From Watersipora subatra (Eukaryota; Bryozoa; Gymnolaemata; Cheilostomatida; Watersiporidae): a stretch of 64,000 nt of DNA. Location of the stretch: NCBI RefSeq assembly GCF_963576615.1, contig NC_088710.1:3142001-3206000 (forward strand), written 5' to 3'. The position numbers and the translations under genes were made by a program. Below, piece after piece: positions 6,001 to 50,860 of the stretch. Below the pieces are notes generated by a model, which had not been told where the DNA came from, did no database searches, and saw only the letters and a list, made by a program, of their open reading frames with translations. The number at the start of each line of letters is the position of its first letter. Position 1 is the stretch's first letter.

Positions 6001-9000
6001 CCTTTGATACTCCATAAGGATTGGTAAAATACATGAAAAACTTGCTACTACAATGTACCCTCAGGATACGATTTTGAGCCATTCCAGGTTGGCACTGTAT
6101 GGTGAAAAAATCATATGCAGGGGTATAGAAACCATAGTAATTACCTAATGCAAACATCCCTAGTAAAATCATCAGAATTTTATATACGCACTGACATATT
6201 AAAAACTAGTAACAAAATAGTATGTTAACCTTAGTAACCATAGTTACCTACAGGAACTTCAGTGTATTTAAAGGTTGACTTGCAACAAAATTCACATTAC
6301 AGTTATTTGGTATCAAAAGATTCACCATGTTTTACTCTGTTGTGTTGTAGGTGTCAAATACGTGGAAATGTGATTACAAGCTCTTAAAAGCTCAAAAACG
6401 AAAAGCCGCCGTAGATTGGAATCTCTTTATTTATCTGACGTAGTCATTCCAGTTTGGTTATCGTCTTGTCACGTATGTTCTCACGTGAATTGAAAGGCCA
6501 ATAAAAAGCTCGATATAAAACTTATCGTAGCACTAGGTTATGACAAACACTTCGGGTTTTACCGAAGACCCCGTAACAAATATAGATGCTCACTACTTTA
6601 GTTTTCTTTCGGCATTATTCAATCGTCAAGTCGTAATCTGATCACGTGACCCAATACTTCGCAAACAATTTTTGCAGCTCTTTTCGATTATCACAGGTAA
6701 CCAACAGGCTCGTCATGATTATCAGACAATGATATATACTCTTTCGAGGTAAGGTTAAAAAGTTTAACGATTTTTTACGGTAAGTTATAAGATATCAGTG
6801 CTAAAAGTGACAGCATTAAAATGACGATAAAGCAGACGCGTAAAAACAATAGACATGGTTTTATTAAACGCGTGAAGTATATTTGTGAAAATATTTCGAC
6901 GAATGAGGTTGCATGAAAGTGTAAACAGAAACCATCATCTAACAACTACGTCCCATTTGAGCCGTTTTGGAAAGCGAATCCAAACTATGGCGGTCTCGTG
7001 TGGCTGCGATTTTGTGTTTGTTTTTGAGCTTTTAAGAGCTTGTAATCACATTTCCATATATTTTGCACCTACAACACAACAGAGTAAGACATGGTGAATC
7101 TTATGATACCAAATAACTGTAATGTGAATTTTGTTGCAAGTCAACCTTTAATGGTTATGATCGGCAATAAAATGTAACAATAGAATGTACCGTAGGGAGT
7201 TCTTATCTTCAAGACAGACGTAGATATAACATTAACTTCACCTAAAATAAGTTTAGCTTACTAAACACACACTTAAAGCTAAGTTTTAGTATGTATTTTC
7301 AACTATTTTACTGAATTTCAACTTTTCATCAGTAAAATTTTATCACTTATCAGTCACGGTCTTTGCTTTCACTATAACTTTTAGCGGGCTTCTTTAAAAC
7401 ATTTTCCAACCGAATTCGGCAAGAAAGCCGGAACGATGCTTTTTCCGTAATGAAGTGGATTTTTGTTAGCAGGCTAAAAGTTGTCTAACCTGTTTGAAGA
7501 GACTGCGACTCCAACTTTGCTACCGGTTTTAAAGGGAAAGTAGTACCATTTTATGCGCGAGAATCGATGAACGGAGAGAAATCGGTCATCGTGTTTCTTT
7601 CAGGCATTGTGAAAATATTTTGGCTAACAAAACTTTGTTATTTTGACGTACGTAATAAACACACTAGACAACCAAATTTGAACTCGGGCAAAAATTTTGT
7701 TGAATTTGTAAGGTGAAAAATGAAAAAAATTTGTATGGCGAGGTGAAAAAATCATCATGTTTCACTATGTAAGGTGAAAAAAGTCGTATATCAGGGTAAT
7801 CGCATCCTGAGGGTGCGCTGTATATCAGGGTAATCGCATCCTGAGGGTGCACTGCATATCGGGATAATCGTATCCTGAGGCTGCACTGTATATCAGGGTA
7901 ATCATATGCTGAGGGCGCGCTGTATCTCAGGGTAAGTGTATCCTGAGGATGCACTGTATATCAGGGTAATCGTATCCTGAGGGTGCACTGTATCTCAGGG
8001 TAAGTGTATCCTGAGGGTGCACTGCATATCAAGGTAATCGCATCCTGAGGGTGCACTGTATATCAGGATAATCGTATCCTGAGGGTGCACTGTATATCAG
8101 GACTATCCTATCCTGAGGGTGCACTGTATATCAGGATAATCGTATCCTGAGGGTGCCCTGTATATCAGGGTAATCGCATCCTGAGGGTGCACTGTATCTC
8201 AGGATAATCGTATCTTGAGGGTGCACTGTATATCAGGGTAATCGTATGCTGAGGGTGCACTGTATATCAGGGTAATTGTATGCTGAGGGTGCACTGTATA
8301 CCAGGGTTATCCTATCCTGAGGGTGCACTGTAATCCACGAATAAGAAGTGCTCTGTTACATATCCCATCAGCTAAACTGATAATGATAATCATAATCCAC
8401 CTGCGCCAGATTAATGCTGCAGTTATTTAAACGTGAAATAACTATTGTGTATCGTGGGTAATATATAGAATAGCGCAGCTATGGCCAAATGTCGGATCTA
8501 AATCCTGACGCTTCTAGCCTTTTGTGTATATTTATTCAGTAGGTTGTCAAAGTTTTTTTGAAGTATTCATTTTAAAATTTGGTTTAAACATTTTTGTAAA
8601 TCGTTTGTCATTTAATTGGCCATCACCTGTAAGCTTGGAAAAGTACCCAATAATTACTAGTTTAGCGAGAAGACTACTTACTGGCTTTGCATTAACTTAC
8701 CTATGTGAATCATTGTTTTCAGCAATGGATTTTGTGAAAAACCATTATAGAACACGATTTACAAATACTCAACATCATGAGCTTGTAAGAGTTGTTGTAA
8801 GTAGCAGGAAACCGCGTTTTGATAGTATTTAGTATTGCGAAGTCCAAGCCCACTCATCATTTTTTCTCACTGATATCAGACATATTTATTACAGCACATT
8901 CATTCACTGAATTTTAGTTAAACAATGTTTATAAATAAAGTTTTTAAAATGGTATTTGACGCTTTTTTTCAAATACACTGTATACATAAATAATTGCATG

Positions 9001-15587: not shown

Positions 15588-16048
15588 TGATGAGTCAATA
15601 AACAGACTTGTGGGTGAGCCGATAAACAGACTCGCGGGTGAGCCGATAAACAGACTCGATGGTGAGCCGATAAACAGACTCGATGGTGAGCCGATAAACA
15701 GACTCGATGGTGAGCCGATAAACAGACTCGATGGTGAGCCGATAAACAGACTCGATGGTGAGCCGATAAACAGACTCGATGGTGAGCCGATAAACAGACT
15801 CGATGGTGAGCCGATAAACAGACTCGATGGTGAGTCGATAAACAGACTCGATGGTGAGCCGATAAACAGACTCGATGGTGAGCCGATAAACAGACTCGAT
15901 GGTGAGCCGATAAACAGACTCGATGGTGAGCCGATAAACAGACTCGATGGTGAGCCGATAAACAGACTCGATGGTGAGCCGATAAACAGACTCGATGGTG
16001 AGCCGATAAACAGACTCGATGGTGAGCCGATAAACAGACTCGATGGTG
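15588..16048. repeat. 24-bp minisatellite, about 19 copies
   Basis: Unit GGTGAGCCGATAAACAGACT plus CGAT. Inner copies are nearly identical while the first two are diverged, the usual sign of homogenisation by unequal exchange. Because 24 is a multiple of three and the unit lacks stops, both strands stay open (repeat peptides GEPINRLD and RLTIESVY). Nothing around it supports a gene, so these frames are treated as artefacts. Confidence 0.92.
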
Positions 16049-16736
16049 ACTTTTCTCAACTATTACACCCTAGCAAGCCAAGCGCAATAATTCTTGATGT
16101 TCGGTCAGTAGCACTTATAGTGAATGCAGCTATGATACGCTGGCTAATATCACAATGCTAAAGTCAGAAACAGTGACAAGAATGTTATACCTATGTGCTT
16201 TTCAACTCAAGCAGAGCTTGTTTGTAAAGAACGCAGTATCTTTATTGGTGTTATATCTCTCAGTACCAAGCAGTAACACACCAACAATGATCAAACCGGC
16301 AGGTTATATAGCAATCCCAAGAAAAATCTACAAATTGATTGGCTGCACAGTAATCAGGTCAACCAATTCCACAATAACATATTTCGAATACAAAAACGAT
16401 AACCTTTGTCACTAACTAATCACGCAATACGAGTATTAATAATTGTTTTTGTGTTTGTATAGTAACATGCAAATCTTAGAACAATATGGTAATAAATGGT
16501 TAACATAAAAAAATTGCTAGTATCACACATACATACACTCTACATTGAACAAGTGTTAAGCGTGCGCCTTATAAATGACTATTCAAATTTGTCTGAATTG
16601 CGATGAACGTAATATAGATCCGTTGAGTTAGCAATTTAAAGCTGCCGGATTATAGGCTTAGAAAAGACGTCATCAACTCTTGCGCATTCTGACGTCTACA
16701 ATTACGGGTACACACTGATTGACAGCTCATTCGCTT

Positions 16737-18117: not shown

Positions 18118-18540
18118 TATCTACCGCATTAGTTGGTTTGAGCATAGCATGATTAAGGCATTTCAAACTAGCCTGCCAACCCAAGAGTGGGGCAATGCGT
18201 GAATTTTTTGTTTTTGGGGCAATTGATGTATCAATGATTGTATATATAAAATTGTAGAAATTGGGGCAAAAATCTCACGCATTTTCATTTTTTCTTTGGG
18301 GTGATTGCGTGAGTCTCACGCTCAATGCGTGAGAGTTGGCAGGTATGAGCATGGCCAAATCACGACATGCTAGTTTAATTCACCGCATTCATCAATTCAG
18401 CCTTATCCGATATGTACTAAGGCCATATCGAATAACGCTAAGCTGATAAATGCGTTGAATTAACTACTATGTCGTGATTAAGCCATGTTAGTTTGAGATG
18501 CCTTAATCATGCCAGGTTCAAACCAACTAATGTGATAGAT
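18118..18540. mobile_element. Long palindromic (foldback) element, split by a MITE
   Basis: The outer left arm (18118-18171) is repeated inverted at 18485-18540 (shared core GCATTAGTTGGTTTGA). The inner arms 18344-18410 and 18420-18490 are near-perfect reverse complements around a loop of about 6 bases at TACTAA. Removing the 172-bp MITE at 18172-18343 leaves a nearly continuous hairpin of about 250 bp. No coding sequence. Confidence 0.7.
18172..18343. mobile_element. MITE with CCTGCCAAC termini nested in the palindrome
   Basis: Terminal inverted repeats CCTGCCAAC / GTTGGCAGG continue imperfectly inward (GGCAATGCGTGA against CTCAATGCGTGAGA). A TA lies next to both ends. It interrupts the left arm of the surrounding palindrome, so it inserted later. 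Non-coding. Confidence 0.65.
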
Positions 18541-26000: not shown

Positions 26001-29000
26001 GACCCGCGGGTGCCATTTGGAAAAGCTCATGATCATGCTAAGATGATAGTGACTGAGGCGGGAGCCCTCGAGCTGCTCCTTGATGTCGCACTAAGTAAGA
26101 TGAGTTCTCCCTTTGCTTTCTTGCTCTCCAGAACATTGTGACAACTAGCATAAAATAATTTTACCTCTATTTACTGTTGCTTTTCATTAATTTGCTATGT
26201 TATGCTTCATGGTATAGCTATAAGCCTTAAAACATTTGGTATCTATTTTTTAGTGAAACAGTCCACCATGTAATTTTTAAATGTAATTTTAGATGTCAGT
26301 ACATGAAGGAAAAACTCCTTGCAAATGTTCATTACTGTTAACTATTATACTATAAGAGTTCATTAGATTGCAGCCGTCAGCTTTAATTTTATCTTTAGTT
26401 ATTTTTTCTGGTTTCTTCTCTCTGTCCTGATACGCTTTACATTATTCATAGCTTCACTGTGCGAAATCAGATTTAGACTACATTAGTAGTCGAAGAAAGC
26501 TTCTTCAAATAGTGGTAACTTGGTCTGTTTCTAAAAATCTTTTGTTGTTACACGCTTCAGTGTACTCAAGTTCTCTGCAACTATGTATTTGCAGAGTATT
26601 TTGTCGTGTACCATTATCAATTGATATCTAATAATTTATTATTTGTCAAGTCAATAAACAGCTTGATCTGTTGTATATTTAGTGTCAAATTTCTATTATA
26701 GTATTAGCTTCTGTTGACAGAACCCATACTAGTAATATACATGGGTAGACAAGGTGGGTCCTTGTTATGTATACATCTCCTTTTATCAACGAAATGGTAG
26801 ACATATTTTTTATCCTAGCTAGGGTTGCTGTGTCTGTAGGTCACGAATCAGATGTAGTCCTGGCTGACATATTGTAACCTTTGGTAGGCTTGCTATGTCT
26901 GCAGGTCACAAATCAGATGCAGTCCTGGCTGACATATTTGCAACACTAGGTAGGCTCGCTGTGAGAAACGAGTTTTGTCAGAAGATTGTTGACCTGGGAG
27001 GGCTGACCTTGATGCTTGATCTGCTTACTCGCAACATTAAACATAAAGTAGGTACTTCCTGTATTTACTCTCGCTACTCCCATATTTATCACAAAATGTC
27101 CCAATTGACTCCAAAAAAGCTGTTCTACCTGGTAAGCAAGTTAGCTAGTAGATTACATCAAGGCTGGGATGGATCCGTTCTACCTGGACAGAGTTCAGCT
27201 TGACTACCATCTCGTCTATCGCTAGATTATCTCTTGCATTTAGGAGTAAGAAAACATTCTAATCACGCTACACACATATTAGAAGCAAAGAACTATGTGG
27301 GACATCAAGTGGCTGGCCAAGACCACAAACTTAGAAGTCTTACAATGGGCAGGCCTATCGTCGATGGCTGACATCCTTATTGAAAAAATGTCTGAGATGG
27401 TGGGGCCATGTACACAGGCCACGTAAATCTCAGACCTGTGATGGTATAAATCTCAGGCCACGTACATAGAATGGAACAACATCAGATCCACAGTTATACT
27501 CGCAGCAATCTGATAGTAAACGAAATCGAGGAAAGCCTAGACTCCGCTGTATAGATGTAACTAAGAAGAATTTAAAATGGAGGCAGATTAATACCAACTC
27601 ATGGGAAATGCTTGTAACTGAGGTGATTGTAGATCTGTTATAATACGTAAGCCACAAACATACAGTTTTAGTTGCATCAACTGACGGCAAGAGAAGAGAG
27701 AGAGAGAGATTTCAAAGGAGAGAGAGCAATTCTTGGATACCCTTGTGCCATGATATTGAGTATAGATCTGTTGGTGAGATTTCAGTGTTGTGAAGTGATT
27801 CCCATCTTGCCTCTCACATAATTAACTGCAATATTATTTCTTTACAGGTGATAGTGACAAACATCATAGGAGTGTTTAAGGCTATAGCTGGAAATGACAA
27901 TGTGAAGGTAGCTATAACAAAATCTGATGCTCCGGCAATCATAGTCTCCGCTATCGATCACCATCAAACCTCCGAGGCGCTGTGCGCCAATTCCTGCGCC
28001 TGTCTCGCTACCATTTCCCTCAGGAACCCTGAAAATGTGAAGCGTATCATGGAGTGTCATGGACACACAGCCGTTATCCAATGTATGAAGTTGCACCCAA
28101 ACTCTACTCAAGTGCAGGTAACTTCCATTGTCCATTGTGTGACAGTTGCAAGCTACTTTCTCTCTTTCCAACCAACTGCAAAATCAAACTATGGCTATTT
28201 GATTATTAATTTTAACAGTTATTTAAATGTACTTTATGCATTAATTGCTTTGTTAGAATGATGTTCAAGTAGAAAGCTTGAGATTTACATTGGTGGTACC
28301 TACAAACATATCAAATGTGGACAGACAACTTCATATTTGTTTAAAGCAATCTACTGGTTTGTGACAAACATTTGCACCAACAACAGTGGCGTTTTGTTAT
28401 CTGTTGTTTTTTATAGAATGCTTTTATGACTGATAAGCATTTGCTCAGTCGAGAGTTAGTAGTGTTAGTCAACTAGTAACCCTTATCATAGACTGAGTCG
28501 CCGACGCGTTGTTACCATTTATCATCATAGCCAACTTTGAACATCTGTAGTTCCTTTTCATTTCTCATCTCTACTCCACTGATATACATTATCATTTCTC
28601 ATCTCTACTCCATTGATATATATTATCATTTCTCATTTCTACTCCACTGATATATATTATCATTTCTCATATCTACTCCACTGATATATATTATCATTTC
28701 TCATATCTACTCCACTGATATATATTATCATTTCTTATCTCTGCTCCACTGATATATATTATCATTTCTTATCTCTGCTCCACTGATATATATTATCATT
28801 TCTTATCTCTGCTCCACTGATATATATTATCATTTCTCATCTCTACTCCACTGATATACATTATCATCTCTCATCTCTACTCCACTGATATATATTATCA
28901 TTTCTTATCTCTACTCCACTGATATATATTATCATTTCTCATCTCTACTCCACTGATATATATTATCATTTCTCATTTCTACTCCACTGATATACATTAT

Positions 29001-30118
29001 CATCTCTCATCTGTACTCCACTGATATATATTATCATTTCTCATCTGTACTCCACTGATATATATTATCATTTCTCATCTCTACTCCACTGATATATATT
29101 ATCATTTCTTATCTCTGCTCCACTGATATGTATTATCATTTCTCATTTCTACTCCACTGATATATATTATCATTTCTCATCTCTACTCCACTGATATATA
29201 TTATCATTTCTTATCTCTACTCTACTGATATATATTATCATTTCTTATCTCTACTCCACTGATATATATTATCATTTCTCATCTCTACTCCACTTATATA
29301 TATTATCATTTCTCATCTCTACTCCACTGATATATATTATCATTTCTCATCTCTACTCCACTGATATATATTATCATTTCTCATCTCTACTCCACTGATA
29401 TATATTATCATTTCTCATCTCTACTCCACTGATATATATTATCATTTCTCATCTCTACTCTACTGATATATATTATCATTTCTCATCTCTACTCCACTGA
29501 TATACATCATCATTTCTCATCTCTACTCCACTGATATACATTATCATTTCTCATCTCTACTCCACTGATATACATTATCATTTCTCATCTCTACTCCACT
29601 GATATATATTATCATTTCTCATCTCTACTCCACTGATATATATTATCATTTCTCATCTCTACTCCACTGATATATATTATCATTTCTTATCTCTACTCCA
29701 CTGATATATATTATCATTTCTCATCTCTACTCCACTGATATATATTATCATTACTCATCTCTACTCCACTGATATATATATATATATATTATCATTTCTC
29801 ATCTCTACTCCACTGATATATATTATCATTTCTCATCTCTACTCCACTGATATATATTATCATTTCTCATCTCTACTCCACTGATATATATTATCATTTC
29901 TCATCTCTACTCTACTGATATATATTATCATTACTCATCTCTACTCCACTGATATATATTATCATTTCTCATCTCTACTCCACTGATATACATCATCATT
30001 TCTCATCTCTACTCCACTGATATATATTATCATTTCTTATCTCTACTCCACTGATATATATTATCATTTCTCATCTCTACTCCACTGATATATATTATCA
30101 TTACTCATCTCTACTCCA

Positions 30119-30154
<36 letters not shown>

Positions 30155-30242
30155 CATTTCTCATATCTACTCCACTGATATATATTATCATTTCTCATCT
30201 CTACTCCACTGATATATATTATCATTACTCATCTCTACTCCA

Positions 30243-30290
<48 letters not shown>

Positions 30291-30373
30291 AAAAATTATT
30301 GCGAAAAAAGTAAACTTTTAGTATTTGCGTTACAAATCTGTTTCGTGCGAAGCACTCCTCAGACGCAATTGTA

Positions 30374-30409
<36 letters not shown>

Positions 30410-31446
30410 TTTTTTTTTTTTTTTTTTTTTTAGTACAATTGCGTCTGAGGAGTGCTTCGCACGAAACAGATTTGTAACGCAAATACTAAAAGTTTACTTT
30501 TTTCGCAATAATTTTTCAAATATTTCATACTCCACTAATAATCTTTTAGGTTTTAGTGTAGAGTTCTCTTTTTATATGCTTTTGCACTTGCTTTTAGTTA
30601 ACATATATATATATATATATATATTATCATTTCTCATCTCTACTCCACTGATATATATATATATATATTATCATTTCTCATCTCTACTCCACTGATATAT
30701 ATTATCATTTCTCATCTCTACTCCACTGATATATATTATCATTTCTCATCTCTACTCCACTGATATACATTATCATTTCTCATCTCTACTCCACTGATAT
30801 ATATTATCATTTCTCATCTCTACCCTACTGATATATATTATCATTTCTCATCTCTACACCACTGATATATATTATCATCTCTCATCTCTCATCTCTACTC
30901 TACTGATATACATTATCATTTAAAATCTCGCTGTAGGCAGTTTAAAAACTCTCTCTGGAGCAATAAGGCGTTCTTATTCCACCTTGTCCCTCAGATAGGT
31001 GGTATGACGAGAAGATCTGTCTGCCAGTAATTCAACTAATTGATATTTCAGATGCTAATTTGTGCAACTTTTTATGTGATGCTTGTTTGCTGCATCTTTA
31101 CATATGGTTCTTCATAAAAAATGGGGTGCTGCTAATAGCTATGACCTGCTCAGCTGTCAATAATCATTTAATAACCATATCTGGAAAGGGTATCAGTTGT
31201 GAAACTGGTTGTTTTAACAAAGATGTTGTATTTTAGAAACAAGCTTGTATGGCAATCCGTAACCTGGTCTCACGAACAAGAGAAAACAATGAGGCAATAC
31301 TGGGACTGGGCGCTGAAGAGCTCATAAACAGGGCTATGACAGTGCCGGACTGCAAGGATGAGGCCAAAGCTGCGTTGAGGGACCTTGACTGCAATGTCGA
31401 GCTGACAATAAGATGGAAAGGAGAAAGAGGGCAAATATCCCAGTGA
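23027..31446 (+). CDS. ARMC6: Armadillo repeat-containing protein 6
   Basis: Conserved ARM-repeat protein of poorly known function, probably a soluble protein-binding scaffold (family knowledge). Six coding exons with GT-AG borders and matching phases: 23027-23152, 23887-24328, 25894-26094, 26905-27047, 27848-28117, 31237-31446; 463 residues, close to human ARMC6 (501 or 476). The N-terminus [20 protein letters not shown] matches human SKRIAQETFDAAVRENIEE. Later anchors are [41 protein letters not shown], and the C-terminal [12 protein letters not shown]. Exon 2 must end at 24328 (donor GTAGGT) for the phase to fit VSKGVVPLL; the GT four bases on would shift the frame. An acceptor (GTCAGTACAG) 13 bases before the ATG implies an upstream untranslated exon. 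Introns 2-5 contain repeats; intron 3 has a decayed partial copy of exon 4. Confidence 0.95.
24444..25330 (-). mobile_element. Helitron-like element, copy G (inverted), in ARMC6 intron 2
   Basis: Reverse-complement relative of copy D: the CTAG-hairpin end lies at 24444-24470 and the shared body at 24490-24950 (for example GATACTGGTACCTCTCGATA). The tRNA-like B-box GAGTTCAAATCC now reads on the plus strand at 25195-25206. The outer (5') end is diverged, so the right edge is approximate. Confidence 0.55.
25330..25510 (-). mobile_element. tRNA-derived SINE-like element, minus orientation, in ARMC6 intron 2
   Basis: On the minus strand, TGGTGTAGTGGTAAGTGCGC (A-box) is followed by AAGTTCAAATCCTGTGTGAG (B-box) within 25438-25500, then an unrelated tail toward 25330. 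The acceptor stem does not pair. It differs from the Helitron-like copies downstream of the B-box, so it may be a separate tRNA-SINE. Confidence 0.45.
26824..26888 (+). pseudogene. Decayed tandem duplicate of ARMC6 exon 4 start
   Basis: This 65-bp stretch (TGTCTGTAG splice-like end, then GTCACGAATCAGATGTAGTC and CTGGCTGACATATTG) is a direct repeat of 26889-26954, which carries the real acceptor and first 50 bases of exon 4. The copy still has an AG acceptor but reaches a TAA after about 12 codons, so including it would break the protein. Confidence 0.75.
27290..27640 (+). pseudogene. LINE reverse-transcriptase C-terminal tail, remnant in ARMC6 intron 4
   Basis: The plus-strand frame [20 protein letters not shown] then [13 protein letters not shown] resembles the tail following the RT domain of many non-LTR retrotransposons (K-R-x-R-G-x-P...R..D....L.....W). 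The upstream [12 protein letters not shown] resembles the LRWLGHVxRM motif. Frames are interrupted; only about 350 bp is recognisable. Confidence 0.45.
30325..30368 (-). ncRNA. Type I hammerhead ribozyme motif, left arm
   Basis: Exact reverse complement of the motif at 30439-30482, with the same core (CTGAGGA, GAAA), stems and predicted cleavage site (complement of T30331). It would fold in RNA made from the minus strand, while the other copy folds in plus-strand RNA such as the ARMC6 pre-mRNA. Confidence 0.8.
30439..30482 (+). ncRNA. Type I hammerhead ribozyme motif, right arm
   Basis: All conserved core elements are present. Stem I is TTGCGT (30439-30444) paired with ACGCAA (30477-30482), extended beyond an internal loop by AGTA/TACT. 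The core CTGAGGA is at 30445-30451. Stem II is GTGC-TTC-GCAC at 30452-30462. GAAA is at 30463-30466. Stem III is a 3-bp ACA/TGT helix closed by GATT. The predicted cleavage nucleotide A30476 follows the U of stem III (site UA). The short stem III and two-part stem I are typical of metazoan type I hammerheads. Confidence 0.8.
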
Positions 31447-31972: not shown

Positions 31973-34900
31973 TCAGAGTGGATCAGCCCACCCATGGTTA
32001 TCAAATGTTTGCACATATAACTGCTGCAGACGAGCCCAAAACTTAGATGATCCAACAAGAGCGATGCAGAATAATATGGATGCATAGAAAAGCAGGAGTA
32101 ACGCCTGGCTATGTCTTTGTATCCACAGCAAGCACTGGGAGGGCTCCTTTCTACACCTGTCAATCACACATTGCAAAAACAAGATCAATACATCAACTCA
32201 GTTCGATTTTGTAACTACTAGAGCAATACAGGAAGAATGGATCCAAATATGCAATCTTCAGAGACTTGAAAGGGTGGATATGAATAGATGATGCATTCTT
32301 TGTTGATCCATTTTATTGCAGTGCTACGAGGGTGTTAAAGAAGGTTGATTTGAGGGTCAGTGTAACTAGCTAATAGTGAGTAGTTGCGTCTATCAGCAGT
32401 TCTAATACAGAGACTAATAGAAGTATGAAAAAAAAACTAATCATTGACCAATCATATGATAGAGCAATTCTATTGATATCGTGTCAAGGCTTTTCAGTAT
32501 GAAGGTCGTATAGCTAAGGTCTTGTAATGAAGGAATCGATCGATGGAGGCATGTAAGTTTGCTCAAGGCAAGCCTTTTGTTAAAAATTGGGATGAATATC
32601 CGACACTATATCAACCACCATCTATACAGCTACTCCGTGTCAGGTACTCTATCAACTACCATCCTTACAACTACTCAGTGTCAGGTACTCTATCAACTAC
32701 CATCCTTACAACTACTCAGTGTCAGGTACTCTATCAACTACCATCCATACAGCTACTCAGTGTCAGGTACTCTATCAACTACCATCCTTACAACTACTCA
32801 GTGTCAGGTACTCTATCAACTACCATCCATACAGCTACTCAGTGTCAGGTACTCTATCAACTACCATCCTTATAACTATTCAGTGTCAAGTACTCTATCA
32901 ACTACCATCCTTACAACTATTCAGTGTCAGGTACTCTATCAACTACCATCCTTACAACTACTTAGTGTCAAGTACTCTATCAACTACCATCCATACAGCT
33001 ACTCAGTGTCAGGTACTCTATCAACTACCATCCTTACAACTACTCAGTGTCAGGTACTCTATCAACTACCATCCTTACAACTATTCAGTGTCAGGTACTC
33101 TATCAACTACCATCCATACAGCTACTCAGTGTCAGGTACTCTATCAACTACCATCCTTACAACTATTCAGTGTCAGGTACTCTATCAACTACCATCCTTA
33201 CAACTACTCAGTGTCAGGTACTCTATCAACTACCATCCTTACAACTATTCAGTGTCAGGTACTCTATCAACTACCATCCTTACGACTATTCAGTGTCAGG
33301 TATTCTATCAACTACCATCCTTACAACTACTCAGTGTCAGGTACTCTATCAACTACCATCCATACAGCTACTCAGTGTCAGGTACTCTATCAACTACCAT
33401 CCTTACAACTACTCAGTGTCAGGTACTCTATCAACTACCATCCTTACAACTATTCAGTGTCAGGTACTCTATCAACTACCATCCTTACAGCTAGCAGTTT
33501 TTGGTGTAAGTCAGTTGATTCTAAAAAGTAGCTTCATCTCAATACAGCACCAATATGTAACAGCGCGTCTTTGTTAAAACCTATACTAGAAATTTCACTA
33601 GCAATGTCACTAGCAATATCACTAGCAATGTCAGTAGCAATGTCACTAGCCATGTCACTAGCAAGGTCACTAGCAATATCCCTGACAACGTCACTGGCAA
33701 TGTCACTAGCCATGTCACTAGCAATATCCCTGGCAACGTCACTGGCAATGTCACTAACCATGTCACTAGCCAAGTCACTAGCCATGTCACAAGCCATGTC
33801 ACTAGCAATGTAACTAGCAATGTCACTAGCAATGTCACTAATCACGCCACCAGCAATATCACTAGCAATGTCACTAGTAATGTAAATCCTGTGCATGTTT
33901 TTATCAGAAATAAACAGAAAAACCATTCTGTTTACAAACAGTTCTTTTTCCCAACATTTGTAATTCAGAGAAGATATTAACAGAAAAATCCACTGACCGC
34001 TGATATTTTGAAATCATAAAGAAAAAGGCAAATGAAACAGTTTTGCATTTAACGTATCAGAAAAGTTGAGTAATCAAAGAGTGATGCTAGTAGACAATAA
34101 ACATACCTGATGCCTGTCGACCTTTGGCCAGAGTAGACAAGCAGGTACTTGAGTCTAACCATGTCATTATTAGTAACTATGAGGTATTTGTCAGGTACAT
34201 CACCGCCGTAGCTGTTCGGCGCTCTCCTCCCTGTACTTCTGCTGCCTGAAATTATTCCAGACGAAATCAAGAATTTGAAGGATTTAATAGTAAAGGAAAT
34301 GCAATCACTAGTAGTGTTATTATCATTCCTATATGACATAGTAACCAAATAAACATACATAACAGGAGTCATGAAACCGCTTTGTTCCTCCAATTTCTAT
34401 ATGAAGTTCTCAGAACTTATTTAGCATTGTTTGTGAATCTAGTGTTTATACACTAAACCATTTTGTTCATTTGACATTGTACCAGAATTTAAAAATTATA
34501 TTTCAAAAAAATATCCCTGAGATGTTTACAGTAATCTAATATAAGGTAATAAATAGATTACAACAAATCATTGATTAGCATGAAGACAACTACTGCATGC
34601 TATATCCACGCCTGTTCTTTCCTGAGATCATACCTCATTATAATCAAGGCAGACTAGGATAATTCTTCACTAAATCCTATAACCTGCTACTCTGACCAAA
34701 TCCTTCATGTTACCAACTCAAATGACCAATGGCGCTGTCAGAATATTTCTTCTATTTCTATTTTCAACGCCATCAGATCCTGTGCGCAGCCTTACATTCG
34801 CAGACCACGTTTTGTGAATATGACACACAGATTATAGATATTAGAGTACAGATATTAGATTATAGATATTAGATTATAGATATTAGATTATAGATATTAG

Positions 34901-37900: not shown

Positions 37901-38534
37901 TGGTACATTTTGTTAAAAAAATTTTGTACCCTGGGTCTGGGTTTAGTAAAACGCATGACGAATTGTGTGACGCTGCGTGATGGCTAAAATCATGCCAGAT
38001 CGTCATAAAATTGCTCCCAATGGCTTACCAGATGTATTTTAAGTAATATCTCAACAGACCAGCAACCATTGGGAGCAATTTTATGACGCTCAGGTATGAT
38101 TTTAGCCATCACGCAGCGTCACACAATTCATCACGCGCTTCACTAGATCCGCTGAAGGTCTTTTTCCCCAGCCTACTTTGGCAGGACTAACAATATGTTG
38201 CACTGTTGGGATGCAATCATTGTTAGAATATGCACTTAAATTTTAAAAAGAACTTTGTGGAGATGCCAGTTTCTGAAACCTTTGCGCAACGATGGCTTTT
38301 GTTCAACATAAATTTAGGTGATGATAATAAAATATGGTTACATAATTACAAAATCATTACCAAGTTACATATATCTTTTTCCCCATTAATCAAGCAGTAC
38401 ATCGGAGGAAATGGCTTGAGAAGAGATTCATATTTGTAGCTTGACACAGCGGCAGCAAATATAGAAACTGCAAAATCAACATCGGCAGCATTCTCCCTCA
38501 TGTAACTAATTCCTTGCAACTCTGGAGCTTCCAT
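31973..38534 (-). CDS. PARP16: Protein mono-ADP-ribosyltransferase PARP16
   Basis: Tail-anchored ER and nuclear-envelope mono-ADP-ribosyltransferase acting in the unfolded-protein response (family knowledge). Six exons: 38534-38401, 37708-37576, 37278-37075, 35369-35195, 34245-34107, 32156-31973, all GT-AG with matching phases; 322 residues, essentially the human length. The N-terminal helical domain includes [14 protein letters not shown]. The NAD-binding H-Y-Y residues sit in [11 protein letters not shown] (H136), YGEGTYL (Y166) and RLKYLLVY (about Y253). A hydrophobic segment (about 280-297, [18 protein letters not shown]) and a short polar tail form the C-terminal anchor. The second-exon acceptor at 37708 was chosen by phase. 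The gene converges on ARMC6, with 526 bp between stop codons. Introns hold three minisatellites and a foldback element; the exon-3 donor is embedded in one of them. Confidence 0.95.
32600..33492. repeat. 41-bp minisatellite in PARP16 intron 5, about 22 copies
   Basis: Unit CTTACAACTACTCAGTGTCA followed by GGTACTCTATCAACTACCATC, with CTTACAACT/CATACAGCT variants. The unit lacks stops in all three plus frames and 41 is not a multiple of three, so three long overlapping frames (up to 311 codons) arise that cycle through the same three peptides. They are artefacts: PARP16 is on the other strand and the array is intronic. Confidence 0.93.
33590..33885. repeat. 12-bp minisatellite in PARP16 intron 5, about 25 copies
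   Basis: Unit TCACTAGCAATG with frequent substitutions (GCCATG, GCAATATC, ACAACG). The 12-bp period keeps frames open on both strands, producing low-complexity ORFs that are not genes. Confidence 0.9.
34826..34948. repeat. 14-bp tandem repeat, about 9 copies, in PARP16 intron 4
   Basis: Unit ATTAGATTATAGAT, very uniform, with one variant (AGAGTACAG) near the left end. Confidence 0.85.
35845..36010. repeat. Degenerate tandem repeat (about 17 bp) in PARP16 intron 3
   Basis: Loose repeats of ACTTGCTATACACCTTTT and variants. Too diverged for an exact copy number; the ORFs across it are low-complexity. Confidence 0.7.
36857..37092 (-). repeat. 27-bp minisatellite made from PARP16 exon-3 end plus its splice donor
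   Basis: Nine units at 27-bp spacing (36857 to 37073). The last unit is the true exon 3 end, reading on the minus strand CATGTTAATAAG then GTATGACT (codons H-V-N-K, then the GT donor). The other eight lie directly downstream in the intron, so the intron begins with eight further candidate 5' splice sites, seven of them exact or nearly exact. Using any of them would add GTA TGA in frame, stopping translation before two of the three catalytic residues. Confidence 0.88.
37937..38150. mobile_element. Foldback MITE, about 214 bp, in PARP16 intron 1
   Basis: Arms 37937-38020 and 38063-38150 are imperfect reverse complements (shared GTGTGACGCTGCGTGATGGC and CCATTGGGAGCAATTTTATG). About 40 bp of loop. 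No target duplication resolved and no coding capacity. Confidence 0.7.
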
Positions 38535-41060: not shown

Positions 41061-41915
41061 ATGGCGGAGGCAAGAGACGACAGATTTGTACAACGCCTGG
41101 ATTTTAAGGACAGTAGCAAATTATCAGTTTCCTGGAAAACTTTCAAGTCCCAGTTTGCAATAGTTACAATTGCTAAGAAGTACTCCGAAATGACTGAGGA
41201 GGAAAGGATAGCAAACTTGCTACTGTTAATGGGTCCTGACAGTGTGAGAATTTATGATCAATTTACATTTGATTCTTCACAGACAGACAGAAAGAAAACT
41301 CTAGTAAATGTAGTAAAATTCTTTGACGCACACTTTGAACCTGTTAAAAATGTCATCTATGGACGTGTCAAATTCAATGACATGAAACAAGGAAGTTTGT
41401 CGATCCACCAATTCATAACAGAGGTTCAAACACAGGCTGACAACTGTGACTATGGAAACATGAAAAATGAGCTTATCAGGGATAGAATTGTTGTGGGGGT
41501 TAATGATCATAAATTGAGGGAATACCTAATTGATATTGATGATCTTACTCTACATAAGGCAATTCAAAAGGCTAAGCAATACGTCACGCACTACTCTTCA
41601 GTACTGCAAATGAGTAGTAGTTCATCAGCAAATGACAATCTAGATGAGGTTAGAACTCGCCCTAGACATTTTGTACATAATAAAAATGAATCATCGGCCG
41701 ATTGCAGGAGTAAATGTCAATACTGTGGCAGAAAACAGGCACATTCTAAAGACAAGTGTCCAGCAAGGAATACTACCTGTTTTGTATGCAAGAAAAAAGG
41801 CCATTTTAGTAAATCTGCAGTGTGCAAGGGGCGTAGTCTACATAGCAATGCAGATGAAGTGGTAGATGAAGAGAATGAGCTAGGTGGACTGTATCTAGGA
41901 TCGGAGTCAGAATGA
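41061..41915 (+). pseudogene. Gag region of the outer gypsy element
   Basis: Capsid-like region followed by two zinc-knuckle-like clusters (CQYCGRKQAHSKDKC and CFVCKKKGHFSKSAVC). It stands at the usual place after the leader and is followed by the pol region. Confidence 0.8.
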
Positions 41916-44900
41916 CTAGGCATTGACACTTTAGACAATAATGTTATCACAGAGACACCCAAGGCTTGGTTAGTTGATACTAAAGTAAATAAAACTCCAA
42001 TAACTTTTAAATTAGATACAGGTGCAGCTGTAACTGCCATACCAGATTTGCTAAAATACTGTGTGTCAAGATTAAATGTCACAGAGAAGGCACTGAAAGG
42101 TGCTGGAAATCACAATTTTAAAGTTCTAGGCGTTTCCAAGGCTAATATATCGGCTGGTTCATATACCATACAGGAAGATGTATATGTAGTAAAAAACTTG
42201 GTGACGCCATTACTTGGTAAGCCAGCGATATCAAAATTAAGACTTTTGAACCTGTTAGACAATATTGAAATAGAAAATGATTGGATTTCTGAATTTCCAA
42301 AGCTCTTTAAGGGACTAGGAACAATGGAGACAGAGGCAAGAATTATTTTAGATGACTCCGTGTCACCTTTTGCACAGAGTGTACCTCGAAGGGTGGCAGC
42401 AGCAAGGAGACAGCCTTTACTGCAGGAATTGCAGAGGATGGAATCTCTTGGTGTCATTGAGAAAATAGAAGCACCAACTGATTGGTGTGCGCCTTGTAAT
42501 GTTGTGCCGAAGAAAAATGGAAATATAAGACTGTGCATTGATTTCACAAAACTAAACAAGGCAGTAAAATGAGAATTTCATCCATTACCGAATGCCCAGG
42601 AGACGCTGAGCGAACTGGGGAATTCTAAATTATTCAGCAAGCTTGACGCCAATTGCGGGTATTGGCAAATGAAGTTGCATGAAGAATCTCGAATGTTAAC
42701 ATCCTTTACTACTCCTTTTGGAAGATTTGTCTGCAAACGTTTGCCTTTCGGTATCAGCTCTGCTCCTGAAATATTTCAGAGGGAGATGCAGAAGATCTTG
42801 AGTGGCTTAGAAGGCATAGTTTGCCAAATGGACGATATTTTAATTCATGGTTCAGACAAAGCTGAGCATGATGAAAGATTAAGCAATGTAATGCAAAGAC
42901 TACAACAAGCAGGCGTTACTCTAAATGACTAAGTGTGAGTTTGGTAAGAAGCAAGTAAAGGTTTTGGGTCATGTTATCGATGAAACAGGAATACATGCAG
43001 ATCCAGAGAAGTCTAAAGCTATACTGAACTTTTCAACACCAACAAACAAAACGGAGCTACGGAGGTTTTTTGGTATAGTGAACTACTTAGGGAAGTTCTC
43101 TCCACTTTTAGCTACAAAAACAAACCACTTGCGTCAACTAGTAGGAAAGGATGCAGATTGGATATGGGGGTTTCAACAAACTGAACAGTTCACAGAACTT
43201 AAAGAGATCCTGTCCTCAACACCAGTTCTAACTCCATATAGTGTGTCAGCTGAGACCATGATAAGCGCAGACGCTTCAGCTTATGGTATAGGAGCAGCTA
43301 TACTCCAAAGAGTTGAAGGTGAATAGAAGCCTGTTGCATATGCTTCTAGGGCATTAACCACTGCTGAGAACAGATATGCGCAGATTGAAAAAGAGGCGTT
43401 AGCAATATGCTGGGCCTGTGACAAATTCCACTACGATGTGGCAGGCAAAGATATTATGATCGAAACTGACCACAGACCGCTGTTAGCTATCCTAGGAGAG
43501 AAGGAACTTGCCAAACTTCCGATCAGGGTTCAAAGGTTCAGATTAAGGATGATGAATTACACATACAAAATCACATATACTCCAGGAAGGAAGCTAGTTT
43601 TGGCTGATGCCTTATCTAGATCTCCAGTATTAAGTGAATGTGTTGTCCAGGAGTTGAAGGACTCTGCAATGGTATTAGAGTTTAATAGACTCTTTACAGA
43701 TCTCATCTGGAAGACTGAACAGAATAAAAGCAGCAATGCTGGAAGACAATGTCAGAATGATGTTGCTACAGTTTACCACTGATGGTTGGCCATCAAGCAA
43801 GGACTTACCAGAGATAGTACAACCTTTTTATACGTTCCGAGACTACATAACAGCAATCAAAGGAGTACTGTTCTATATGAACCGAGTATTCATTCCGGAA
43901 CTAGAGAGAGAAAAGGTTCTCCAGGAAATTCACCAAGGACACCAGGGTGAAACCAAGTGTATAAGAGCAGCAGAAGTCGTCTGGTGGCCAGGTATGTCCA
44001 GGGAAATTAGGGAAATGGTCAAAGAATGCTCAAAGTGTGAAGAGTTTCGGAGGACACCAAGGGAACCCCTTAAGAGCACTCCATTTCCAGAACAACCATG
44101 GTTGAGATTAGCAGTAGATATTTTCGAAAAAGATGGGGCTAATTATTTAGTGGTAGTGGACTACTATAGTCGATATATTTCCGTACATGAGTTGAAGGAC
44201 TCAACAGATGCCAGGACAGTTGTACTGGAATTAGAAAAATTGTTATGCATGATCGGGATACCAAAAACCATAGTAAGTGATAATGGTCCGCAATTCATTG
44301 CAGACAGCTTTAAGAAGTTTGTTAGTAAATGGGATATTGAGCACATCACGAGCTCCCCCAAATTTCTCCAAAGTAATGGAGAGGCGGAGAGGGCTGTCCA
44401 AACGGTGAAAAATTTAATGAGAAAGAATCTCAATACACAGGTAGCACTGTGTGCTTATAGAGATACACCTCTTGCCAATGGATACTCTCCTTCTCAACTA
44501 CTATTCAGCAGATCGATGAATTCGATGGGATTGATGACTGGAAAACAAGTTGATGTGGAAAGATTGAAGACATTTGAACAAGATAGGAGGGAAAAACAAG
44601 CATTCAATTATAACCGCCGACATGCTGCGAGAGATAGGAGCCCGATATGTATTGGTCAGAAAGTAGTGGTGAGAGAACCACAGAAAGCAACCACACCAGC
44701 TTTAGTAGTTGCTGCACAAGGACGGAAAATAGTAGTGGAAAATCAGCAACAGAATCTAATTAGGAGAAATAGATCACAAATAGCTAGAGCGCAAGATAGG
44801 TTGGAAGATAATGCAAGTGAAACTGAGGGAGTTCCAGAAGTTCCTCCAGCAGTTACAAACAAAGAAGTTGAGCCACCACTTATGACATCGCAATCAGAGA

Positions 44901-45067
44901 ATGTCGTATCAAGTCAGAGTAGAGTGGCGGTTCAACGGAAAAACTCTTTGCCTCCAACCATTCAGCGTAAAAGCTCGTTGCCTTCAACAAGTCCAGAACC
45001 AGCAAATATGGCTAAGCGTACTAGGTCTGGGAGGATATCTAAACCAGTACAAAAACCCAACTTATAG
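41916..45067 (+). pseudogene. Pol region of the outer gypsy element
   Basis: Parts in order: aspartic protease (KLDTGAAVT type) around 42000-42230; reverse transcriptase around 42430-43050, with QMDDILIHG as the active-site motif; RNase H around 43240-43620; integrase around 43900-44550 with an H2C2 zinc region (IHQGHQGE ... CSKCEEF) and SDNGPQF in the catalytic core; then a low-complexity tail. Broken in several places; treated as a fossil. Confidence 0.85.
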
Positions 45068-46296: not shown

Positions 46297-49200
46297 TGGT
46301 GTCAGGTGCCAGGACCTCACGCCTGAATGCCTAGGTATACCTGGCCTCTGTAACCTAGGCGCAAAGGCAGAAGAACTAAGTTCATACACTTACTTACACA
46401 ATTAGTGCTTGCCTAAATAGAGATATTAGAATTTCAATACATTTATGTAACAAATCCTATTGATATGGGGGATCCACCACCGCCATTACGCATCAAGGTA
46501 GATACACCTAAGCCTCTGGATTTTGTCAATGCCAGCACACAGTGGACAGAATGGCTGCGAAGATTTAATCGTTTTAAGATCATCAGTGGACTAGCTGCAC
46601 AAGATCAGTCAGTACAAATCGATACTTTCCTTTACATTCTAGGCTCGGAGAGCGAAGACATTTATGAGCAGCTGGTGATCGCAGGTGATAAAACTTTAGA
46701 TAAGGTGATAGCAGCATTCACTCTGTACTTTCAACCTCGTTCAAATGTACTGCATTATAGAACACAGTTTTATAACCGTAAGCAAACAGTCAATGAGTCA
46801 GCAGAAGAATACATCCGTGGCATTCATAATTTAGCCGGCAAATGTAATTTCACAGCGAACCTTACAAAAGAAGACATGATCAAAGATAGGCTGCTTTCTG
46901 GAATGTTAGATACTAAATTAAGTGCAGAATTACAGCTAGATGAAGCGGTCACCCTAGCAGCAGTCACTGCAAAGATGAGGTCTAAGGAAACCATAGAAAA
47001 CCAAATGAAAGCAGCGGCTAAAGTTGAAGTTGTCAAATCTCAGATGAAAAATACTTCTACAGATAAGGCTAGAGGTGGTACTTCGTCAGAGAAGCCTAGA
47101 AACTTTACGTCAAATCAAGGTGGAGCTAGAGGAACAGGTAGCTCTACCCAAGGAAGAGTTTGCAAGTACTGTGGAGGATCTCATCCACCACGTTCTTGTC
47201 CTGCGTATGGAAAGACTTGCAATATATGCATGAAGCGCAATCACTTTGCTAAAGTCTGCCAACAACAATCCTCACGCGCTGTGGCTGAGGTGGCAGAGAC
47301 AGTAAACAACACTTCTGAGCAGAAGGGTGAATTCTATATACACGCAGATGACGCCGTCGTTGACATTAATGCAGGGTTTTTAGCTAAAGCTTTTGTTATT
47401 GATGCTGTAGTAACTGAATGGTTAATGGATTTTCAAGTAAATGGTTTTAACCTCAGGGCCAAAGTAGACACTTGGGCTCAAACTAATTTCATATCGAGTT
47501 CTGAACTTCAACGGGTTTCTCCACAGTCAACTATTCGACCTAGCCACACTAAACTCACAGCATACTCTGGCCATACAATCCCCATTGTAGGTGTAGCCGA
47601 CATCACATTGAAGCATGCAAATGTTGACCACATGCTTTCTTTCCATGTACTTAGAGAAGAACTAAAAGCTCGGACACTTCTAGGGCTACCATCAATTACA
47701 AAGCTGGGTCTCATTGACACTGTCTCAACCATCGGTAGTGACGGGACATCCATCAATCCAGTAGAAATCACAAGTACATACTAAGTGAGTTCAAAGATGT
47801 TTTTACTGGTTTTGGCAAACTAAGTACCACACATAAGATAAGATTCAAACCCAATACAATACCTGCGGTTTGCCCGCCAAGGTCAGTACCACATGCTCTT
47901 AGAGAAAAACTCAAAACCGAACTAGAACGTTTAGTCTCATTAGACATCATAGCTGAATGTCAGGAGCCAGCTGAGTGGTTAAACCCCATAGTCCCAGTAC
48001 TCAAACCTAATGGCACAATAAGAATATGTTTAGATCCGCAGAGAATAAACGAAGCAACCATCAGAGAGCGCTATACTTTGCCCAAAATAAGTGACATTTA
48101 TGCCCGGTTAGCTGGTTCCAGAGTATTTACTACACTTGATGCACAATCCGGTTTTCATCAAATAGCAATTGATGACGAGTCTTCTAAACTAACAACTTTT
48201 CTGACCCCATATGGTTGATTTCGTTACAAGAGATTACTGTTTGGCATTACGTCAGCTCCAGAGTTTTTTCACAAAACCATATATGATATCGTGGGAGATC
48301 TCACAGGTGTAGAAATTTACATAGACGATATTCTCATACATGCCCCTACTCAAGCGGAGCACGACAGTAAGCTCCGTGAAGTTCTGACAAGATTTAAGGA
48401 AGCTGGCTTAAAGTTGAACTCGAGCAAATGTCATTTCAGTCAAAATACCGTGAAATTTTTGGGTAACATAATTTCTGAGAGGGGTATTGAACCGTCTCCT
48501 CACAAAGTGCAAGCCAGAGTAGATGCGTTAAGACCTAAGAATAAAGCTGAGGTTCGATCCCTGTTAGGTCTTGCAACATACCTAGCCAAATTTTGTCCAC
48601 ATCTATCGGAAGTTACTAAGCCGCTAAGGGAGTTACTCAAAGAAACAGTCGATTTTTGCTGGGAGGGGGCGTAGGAAAATTCTTTTAGTGAGCTCAAAAA
48701 GCTAGTAGTCAATGCACTGGTTTTAGCACTTTTTGACCCAAACAAAGAAGTAACAGTCAATGTAGATGCTAGTTCACATAGTCTAGGTGCAGTGTTGCTA
48801 CAGGAAGGCAAACCAGTAGAGTATGCGACCCATTCGCTCACTCCTACCCAATGTTTATACGCGCAAGTTGAAAAGGAGATGATGGCAATTCAGTTTGGTT
48901 TAACACGCTTTCATCAGTACGTATATGGCCGAGAGGTCACAGTAGAATTGGATCACCAACCTTTAGTTAGGATCAACAAAAAGCCACTGAATGAGCTCAT
49001 GCCCAGGCTTCAGCGAATGAAAATGCGTGTGCAACATTACCAATACACAGTCAAACATGTACCTGGGAAACAAATGTATCTGTCAGACTATTTGTCTAGA
49101 TTTTGCAAGGTCACAGCACCTGATAAAAAGTTGAGCCTAGATGATCCCATGCCACAAGTTTGTGCCATTGTTATACGTGGTAGTAAGGCTCTTGATGAGT

Positions 49201-50860
49201 ATTATGAAGCCACCAGCATTGATCGTAGCTTGCAAATCGTTTCTCAGTACACCAAGAAAGGGTGGCCAAAGCAAAAGAAATCATGCCATCCCTTGGCTAA
49301 ACCTTACTGGCAGTTCAGAGACACAATCAGTGAACATAATGATTTGTTGTTCTACGGCGAGAGGTTAGTAATTCCTCATACAAAACAATCGGAAATTATA
49401 GAGCGTTTGCATGATAGTCACCAAGGAATCACTAAAACACAACAGCATGCTCGTACAGCTGTGTTTTGGCCTGGCATGTGCCAGTGCATTGAGGATAGAG
49501 TTAGTTCGTGTGGCGTATGCAAACGTCATGACAAAGCCCAACACCACAGTCCACGGATACCTAGTGAAATTCCTAACTATCCGCGGCAAATGATCGGTAG
49601 CGATCTACTTCAAATCAAAGATCAACACTGCTTGCTAAATGTAGATTACTATTCAAAATGGGTAAACGTTTCACCACTAGGAAATTTGACAAGCCAAGAC
49701 ATCATACAGGAATTCAGGAAGCGGTTCGCAGATTTTGGTCAAGTTTCTAAAATAAGATCCGACAATGGCCCTTAATATGCATCTAGGGAATTCAAGGAAT
49801 TTGCTGAACAGCTCAAAATCGAGCATGTCACTTCCTCACCCAGTTTTCCGCGTTCTAATGGGCAGGCCGAACGGGCAATACAAACAGTAAAACAGTTAAT
49901 GATCAAAGCCTCAGAAGATGGCAAGTGTTATTGGCATTCGTTGCACATGCTTCGCAACACTCCCTTAGAAGGAAACTCCCTTTTTTCCTGCGCAGCTTTT
50001 ACAAGGTCGCACCCTCTATGATGGTTTGCCAGCGCAATGTCACACTCTTTTCTCTAGAGCATACAATAGAGAGTTAGTTAAGTCCAAAATGATATCTAGA
50101 CGAGAAAACATGAAAACCAATCATGACGCCAAGTGCACAGGTAAAGAAAGGTCAGTTTTAGCGCTAGGAAAGCCTGTTAGATTCCAGTTACTGAACGGTA
50201 AGTGGGAGCAAGCTGTAGTGGTCAGTCATGCAAGTCAGACCCGCTCATACTTAATCCAAAATTTGGCTCCAGGGGCAGTTATCCGATGAAACAGGCAGCA
50301 GTTGAGAGAAGACGAAACTCAACCACATACTGCACCCGTAAGTAGGGCTGTATCAAAACCAACTCCGCAGCAGTTTCCGAATACAGGACCCGAGAAAGTT
50401 GTCAATCAGACCGGTAGCGAACAGTCAGAAAAACCACCCGTTGTGCCTTTACCAGGTACTCCAAAGCAAGCACTGGTCAGACCGGCTGAAACTTCCGGCA
50501 CATTATCAAATCAAACTCAAAGTTCACTGTCTGCTACACCAACGACCCCTGTTACCCACACCAGAAGTGGCAGAACTGTTAGAAAGCCACTGAGGTTCAG
50601 AACTGAGTAGTCATTACTATGACCGTTTAGAAAGATGTGTGTACTGTAGTTTAGTAGCTTAGATCCGTAAAGGTAGTTAGTAATTAGGCTATAGATAGCT
50701 TTCTTCACATTAGTATTTAGCCTTGTTTTTAACTTTTTATTTACTATTATACCCAAATACTCGTTGAGTGCCTTTTTTACACATAATACTGTACACTCCT
50801 CTACGCGGGCTGCTAGGGGACAATATTATCTTATTGTTACTGCGTTCAGAGAAGAGGAGA

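Follow-up and report, generated by a model that had tools for sequence, protein, structure and literature searches.

Hammerhead motifs in an ARMC6 intron of Watersipora subatra very probably belong to a short insertion of a Penelope-like retrotransposon

A perfect palindrome in ARMC6 intron 5

The window analyzed here is a 64-kb stretch (64,000 nucleotides) of Watersipora subatra DNA that contains ARMC6. We placed the exons of this gene by tblastn with the Watersipora ARMC6 protein P0122, which gave six matches in the window, one for each exon; the closest ARMC6 match is a Watersipora subatra protein. Exon 5 (27845-28117) and exon 6 (31237-31443) enclose intron 5 (28118..31236, plus strand), and the palindrome noted in a preliminary description of this DNA does lie, as claimed, within that intron. 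The intron also holds a 34-bp minisatellite of about 50 copies (28558..30253), which resumes at about 30607, past the insertion that interrupts it.

The palindrome is a perfect inverted repeat at 30284-30523, the only one in the window, with arms of 118 nt each (30284-30401 and 30406-30523) that are 100% complementary across a 4-nt spacer. By BLAST against the reference of the element described below, the left arm corresponds to D:2445-2546 on the minus strand and the right arm to D:2445-2546 on the plus strand, followed by a tail up to D:175. The left pLTR arm (30284..30375, minus strand) and its perfect inverted copy, the right pLTR arm (30432..30523, plus strand), face each other across an A30/T26 junction at the palindrome center (30376..30431). 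The outer end of the left arm is a site that we call site A (CAAATAT), without a tail; the right arm continues into a tail (30524..30603, plus strand) that spans the distance from site A to a second site, site B (GTTAAC, then AT repeat). The whole insertion, made up of an A-ended arm, a homopolymer center and a B-ended arm with its tail of about 80 nt, occupies 30284..30603 within an (AT)n tract, with (AT)n on both flanks.

Three further inverted repeats in the window, at 6268-7151 (135 nt, 95%), 37939-38150 (85 nt, 89%) and 18119-18540 (57 nt, 86%), are possibly MITEs or older inverted-pLTR insertions. Open reading frames at 41061-45067 and 46465-50610 resemble, by eye, two Gypsy-like LTR retrotransposons (gag, RT, integrase). 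The segments at 15595-16161 and 32543-33577 are repetitive and open in several frames, which is not evidence of a gene.

Hammerhead motifs in both arms

A descriptor scan of the 64-kb window returned exactly two hammerhead sites, one in each arm, on the plus and minus strands, in agreement with the earlier claim of a complete type I hammerhead in both arms; being two halves of one palindrome, they count as one observation and not as two independent ones. The plus-strand motif (30439..30482) comprises a 6-bp stem I (30439-30444/30477-30482), the core segment CTGAGGA (30445-30451), stem II GTGC-TTC-GCAC (30452-30462), the core segment GAAA (30463-30466) and a 3-bp stem III, ACA/TGT (30466-30468/30473-30475). 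Stem I is extended by an outer AGTA/TACT segment (TTTAGTA/TACTAAA) beyond an internal loop, CAA/A, so that the extended motif spans 30429..30490 on the plus strand. The features of a type I hammerhead are all present: the CUGANGA, GAAA and UH elements, with three stems arranged as in type I. The descriptor locates the predicted cleavage site between 30476 and 30477, where it had been placed before, and 5'-OH ends after cleavage would be expected at ACGCAAAU. The mirror motif, with coordinates derived from palindrome symmetry, lies at 30325..30368 on the minus strand, with predicted cleavage between 30331 and 30330. Among 60 Markov-simulated 64-kb sequences there was no site with a stem I of at least 6 bp and a stem II of at least 4 bp, and one looser site.

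Two results count against the motif. The first is a refuting condition named in the preliminary description: none of the Rfam hammerhead families matched in the whole window at the gathering score or in two local stretches at E<=10. The minimum-energy fold of the isolated RNA (RNAfold) is not the hammerhead and is 3.4 kcal/mol more stable (-10.9 for the core against -7.5). The best local Rfam scores belonged to microRNA models, which fit any long hairpin, and all were under gathering scores. The proposal that the two arms would pair with each other and compete with ribozyme folding does find support, the full perfect hairpin of both arms being predicted at -175.7 kcal/mol. Judged from their sequence, the arms carry a hammerhead motif that we regard as a putative ribozyme.

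Hammerheads in the pLTRs of Penelope-like elements (PLEs) are already known. According to the accessible text of PMC7761336, PLEs and Terminons carry minimal type I hammerheads (Cervera and de la Pena 2014; Lunse 2017) that have their cores in the pLTR and a very short helix III and are proposed to act in dimeric form. The present motif resembles these in being a type I core in a pLTR and in its stem III segment, ACAGATTTGT (30466..30475, plus strand), which is predicted to pair over 10 bp with a second copy (self-dimer, -8.4 kcal/mol) and would make a dimeric hammerhead possible. Unlike them, it retains a helix III of 3 bp together with an extension of stem I. We found no report of a bryozoan hammerhead among the titles of the literature on hammerheads and Bryozoa.

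Copies at other loci

A search of the genome with a 94-nt unit gave 840 first-look candidates, 40 of which were scored to yield at least 50 matches. All 50 were examined and resolve into 33 insertion loci, among them the window and a copy that begins at a contig edge (L041). Nineteen loci have arms inverted head to head and show the outer end of each; the arms overlap, lie 76 bp apart or are separated by up to kilobases. The single and tandem copies that had been suggested as a search target were also found, as ten solo A-ended loci (L030-L039) and one tandem without an inverted arm (L025). Another locus is complex (L028), and one combines an A end with a 41-nt inverted piece (L029). L032, counted as solo, has an opposite A-ended pLTR, 80.6% identical, 288 bp off; we take this to be a separate older insertion, and as a pair it would give one A/A. 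A second search, with the tail only and hence without bias towards copies with the whole hammerhead, gave 706 candidates, of which 40 were scored to yield at least 40 matches. Scored copies are nearly identical, and candidates number in the hundreds. When 41 centers were compared, L015/L016 and L023/L050 shared identical or near-identical ones; these are probably duplicated loci, on the same chromosome within each pair, in which the surrounding DNA was copied after insertion.

These loci bear on the concern that the second arm might be spurious. A fold-back read, arising as an assembly or library artefact, would produce perfect symmetry and could be suspected from the homopolymer center, but the outer ends of the insertion are asymmetric, with a tail on one side only, and unrelated loci share the palindrome type while differing in centers and flanks. 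Furthermore, the assembly tzWatSuba1.1 was built from HiFi and Hi-C data according to the accessible text of PMC12902671. We regard an artefact of this kind as exceedingly improbable and the palindrome as not likely to derive from assembly.

The palindrome unit is the pLTR of a Penelope-like element

Kilobase-long copies encode a 702-aa open reading frame (P0001), and the palindrome unit is the pLTR of that element. On its sense strand, a full copy (L009) consists of an inverted arm, a partial 5' pLTR with a hammerhead, a tail of about 80 nt, a leader, the 702-aa ORF, a 3' pLTR with a hammerhead and an AT repeat. The hammerhead is situated shortly after the 3' end of the ORF, and this copy has a second one ahead of the ORF; its leader, which precedes the ORF, also contains the tail sequence of the window.

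Homologues of P0001 numbered 3094 at E<=1e-3 among 8000 scored. P0001 itself had no significant match in Pfam, in a PDB sequence search or by profile, and a Pfam scan of 24 homologues returned GIY-YIG in one and RVT_1 in one. A homologue from Solemya velum has a precomputed GIY-YIG domain, and PF26215 is precomputed on many homologues among the matches listed, although our own Pfam scans of P0001 and homologues did not return it. The AlphaFold model of P0003, which is 67% identical to P0001, has a mean pLDDT of 90.8, and in a Foldseek search of the PDB its best matches were TERT structures, 3du5 (E 1.7e-8, TM-score 0.31) and 6usr (E 6.8e-8, TM-score 0.34); the TM-scores of the first TERT matches, by query length, are low (0.31-0.35). 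No chain described as GIY-YIG was among the best 50 rows. The ORF contains a YRDD box, and its C-terminus reads IYQA...TYIG...RYSNH...E, which we take to be a GIY-YIG-like motif.

The P0003 model suggests that the ORF has a telomerase-like RT fold; a telomerase-related RT is a feature of PLEs. Other PLE features found here are pLTRs in tandem and inverted arrangement with an optional tail, AT-rich targets and 5' truncation. In PLEs a target-site duplication is variable and may be absent; here one would be indistinguishable from the repeat, since the insertions sit inside (AT)n. On the strength of the TERT match and the pLTR arrangement we assign the element to the PLEs, a link that the preliminary description had already drawn. 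As a short copy, the palindrome shows the head-to-head pLTRs that are usual for PLEs, and the layout that was left unexplained before is the ordinary inverted-pLTR structure of these elements. With high confidence, we read it as the result of a young Penelope-like retrotransposon having inserted a short copy of itself into an AT microsatellite, probably by the joining of cDNAs that started at two sites. The window copy is thus an ordinary PLE insertion, real and of a kind already known.

Published PLEs have much in common with this element. As described in the accessible text of PMC3846280, Pen families of Adineta vaga have inverted pLTRs, a tail on one inverted pLTR, partial tandems and junction palindromes. 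PAc (Poseidon of Anolis) has, in the accessible text of PMC11167929, two adjacent RT start sites with a tail between them and a hammerhead at the pLTR-ORF region. With the PLEs of both sources the present element shares a single ORF between pLTRs that combines RT and GIY-YIG (the latter putative here), an inverted pLTR on the 5' side, an optional tail on one of the inverted pLTRs, partial tandems and AT-rich targets, and with PAc it shares the two adjacent RT start sites and a hammerhead motif at the pLTR-ORF region. Its tail is about 80 nt, in contrast to the 30-40 reported, and its ORF has 702 aa as compared with 830-842 in Adineta (PMC3846280). Whereas the PAc hammerhead overlaps the start codon (PMC11167929), the one here is located entirely downstream of the stop codon, within the 3' pLTR.

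Assignment to a coding element also affects two other interpretations. A MITE, that is, a palindromic DNA transposon whose terminal inverted repeats contain a hammerhead by chance, would match the perfect inverted repeat adjoining TA-rich DNA; given the RT ORF in kilobase copies, the non-equivalence of the outer ends (A versus B) and the single-ended or tandem state of some insertions, we consider this highly unlikely. A dimer of a retrozyme, a non-autonomous circular RNA element with a hammerhead, would match the type I hammerhead within a short repeat, and a separate 259-bp tandem hammerhead repeat does exist in the genome. However, the arrangement here is inverted and not tandem, and longer copies are continuous with the RT-coding element and its 702-aa ORF, leaving hardly any probability for a retrozyme. 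Metazoan retrozymes, in the accessible text of PMC7229834, consist of tandemly repeated units of about 150-450 bp and lack an RT of their own; the present unit resembles them in its type I hammerhead and low G+C, and differs from them in being the pLTR of a coding element.

The 259-bp-period tandem repeat (L024:4176-4740 and L002) contains a different type I hammerhead (GCTGCACTGATGAGGCTTCAATAGCCGAAACAGTACTGTCTGTAGC) and resembles a metazoan retrozyme. Next to this repeat, which also occurs in the flanks of L015/L016, a PLE copy has inserted.

The preliminary description further suggested that self-cleavage could affect the intron or its processing; a special role of this kind in ARMC6 finds no support here. 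In such a scenario the plus-strand hammerhead would be a functional ribozyme that cleaves intron 5 in the pre-mRNA and tunes its processing, and a complete motif does lie on the ARMC6 sense strand. However, the pLTR unit is present at dozens of other loci, the window copy being comparable to dozens of other short PLE copies examined in AT tracts, and the monomer RNA favors another fold. Moreover, since the complementary arm precedes the ribozyme arm in transcription of either strand and would pair with it in a hairpin of -175.7 kcal/mol, self-cleavage of the ARMC6 pre-mRNA is unlikely. We consider a functional ARMC6 ribozyme very improbable; the hammerhead of the window is, from its sequence context, most likely inert in ARMC6. 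The window copy shows that an intronic palindrome with ribozyme motifs need not imply regulation.

Outer ends pair site A with site B

Insertions begin at one of two sites, site A at TTTTTCAAATAT (RNA start CAAAUAU) and site B, about 80 nt downstream, at TTAGTTAAC (RNA start UUAACAU), and their outer ends continue into AT-rich repeats. The inverted pairs of the first sample are 18 A/B, one B/B (L014) and no A/A; a binomial probability of 3.8e-5 for 18 of 19 presumes independent ends and loci, and L015/L016 are probably one event. In the tail-only sample, which is unable to reveal A/A pairs, nine of the 40 matches were already known, all A/B, and the 31 new ones comprise three internal pLTRs (L042, L046, L065) and 28 outer B ends. 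An A partner was seen for 22 of these 28, called in some cases on three flanking bases (L044, L050), an alignment stop (L058, L061) or a 12-nt match (L045). Four had no A partner within the DNA examined (2.5 kb at L051; only about 100-150 nt upstream at L060, L069 and L072), and the partner of two (L047, L066) is unassigned. The two samples together give 40 A/B pairs, one B/B and no A/A; because L015/L016 and L023/L050 are probably duplicates, A/B events number 38 at most.

The first sample suggested a stronger rule under which B ends are always paired, since none of its 20 outer B ends stood alone (leaving out the contig-edge copy and the complex L028); this rule fails in the second sample, in which 4 of 37 B arms lack a seen partner. 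Strict A/B pairing of outer ends is an addition of the present analysis: we did not find the rule stated in the mainly open-access literature covered on PLEs, pLTRs, retrozymes and TPRT. In the accessible text of PMC11167929, PAc start sites are described as non-homologous to the target and show no strand difference in vitro, whereas here the target is (AT)n with short AU matches, and the A/B rule has no simple match there.

Inner ends lie mostly at the pLTR 5' edge or are scattered

Where the cDNAs stop was read from the inner ends of the outer B arms. In 19 of 37 arms these fall within 17 nt (T:2440-2456), at TTTTAGTAC, just upstream of the hammerhead (or 18 of 36 when L023 and L050 are treated as duplicates and only L023 is counted), and those of another 17 arms are scattered. 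The position coincides with the pLTR 5' edge, UUUUAGUAC, and long T/A runs recur at the same edge in the window, L031, L032 and L067. We read this pattern as copying up to an RNA 5' end at that edge, probably the transcription start, with slippage on oligo(U). Since the 19 arms run past the cleavage site to the edge, their templates were uncut at that hammerhead, and probably many templates were uncleaved. This is in line with the accessible text of PMC11167929, according to which PAc hammerhead mutants still insert in vitro.

Hammerhead cleavage as the usual template 5' end was considered and rejected, as a stop at the predicted cleavage site is seen in only one of the 37 B arms, that of L056, a copy whose A arm also ends within 1 nt of this site. 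L028 has an end near the cleavage site and, being complex, was left out of the B-arm count. The PLE insertion at this locus (L028:2610-4620) includes a B-ended piece duplicated in inverted orientation, with a 5' end that differs by no more than about 1 nt from the position of hammerhead cleavage.

A two-site model of insertion

We propose that the PLE endonuclease would cut both strands of an AT tract, that one target end would prime cDNA at RNA site A (CAAAUAU) and that the other would do so at site B, 80 nt downstream (UUAACAU). By eye, both start sites have short AU matches to (AT)n. Both cDNAs would extend back through the hammerhead until they reach the edge of the pLTR on its 5' side. 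This edge is probably where the RNA begins, and slippage on oligo(U) there could generate the A/T runs; joining of the two cDNA ends would leave the pLTRs head to head. The hammerhead presumably serves in the processing of PLE RNA and may do so in dimeric form, but about half of the examined copies that started at B passed it uncut. A more specific version, which we offer tentatively and at somewhat less than an even chance, holds that PLE insertion is two-ended by design: the cut strands would prime on A and B, one each, which would make head-to-head pLTRs the regular outcome; mini-palindromes such as that of the window would be strong-stop products begun in the pLTR of the 5' leader and run to the mRNA 5' end; and hammerhead cleavage would supply a rare second template end (L056).

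Alternatively, the inverted arm could arise by snap-back, that is, by self-priming on one template and not by two priming events, as proposed by the authors of the Adineta study for its PLEs (PMC3846280, accessible text). The equal length of the window arms and the partly palindromic pLTR edge (CAATTG, GTAC) fit this idea. However, snap-back copying would not yield two different outer start sites, and the inner ends are often very unequal (898/1068 in L010, 1325/2370 in L011, 2260/458 in L012 and 1311/700 in L014); we therefore think snap-back unlikely. As to the template of the two-site model, a circular RNA would explain the presence of the tail after the 3' pLTR in the copied RNA, as well as the tandems (L013, L025), but multimeric transcripts account for these equally.

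PLE integration and the role of the hammerhead are described as open in the accessible texts of PMC11167929 and PMC7761336. Since this family has hundreds of candidates, nearly identical scored copies and a chromosome-level assembly, junction statistics can separate models: two-site priming from self-priming, and cleaved from uncleaved templates.

The hammerhead is conserved in the family and in diverged elements

The loci examined contain 97 ungapped family copies of the hammerhead, which reduce to 34 distinct sequences across 62 nt (with one row displaced by 1 base). The core, stem II and at least five of six stem I pairs are kept in 92 of the 97, as anticipated by the proposal that other genomic copies would have a conserved core. 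Divergence from the reference is 0.95% at core sites and 3.4% at other sites, the copies being related and not independent.

We also examined the 3' ends of six diverged PLEs, whose matched segments have 37-67% identity; five come from the flanks of loci and the sixth, L040, from a search of prokaryote genome contigs. In five of the six, CTGANGA...GAAAC occurs on the sense strand 114-152 nt past the ORF match, the corresponding distance in the reference being 89; the end in L024 has no hammerhead core. The full descriptor is matched by three of the five cores (L034 at 3182, L028 and L021), whereas L034 at 4693 has the core alone and the core of L040 is truncated where its contig ends. A P of 4e-11 for cores at diverged PLE ends is post hoc, takes its background from the same loci and is illustrative.

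Among relatives in viral contigs, none of 17 pattern matches was confirmed, and in prokaryote genome contigs 1 of 13 was (L040). The PLE of L040, with 44-47% identity, is head-to-head inverted, and its core (L040:3762-3787), with stem II GTGC/GCAC, is the one cut by the contig end; its occurrence in a contig labelled as a bacterial MAG is presumably contamination from a eukaryotic host. In L034:2770-5450, two diverged PLE copies are each followed on the same strand by a hammerhead core (3182, 4693).
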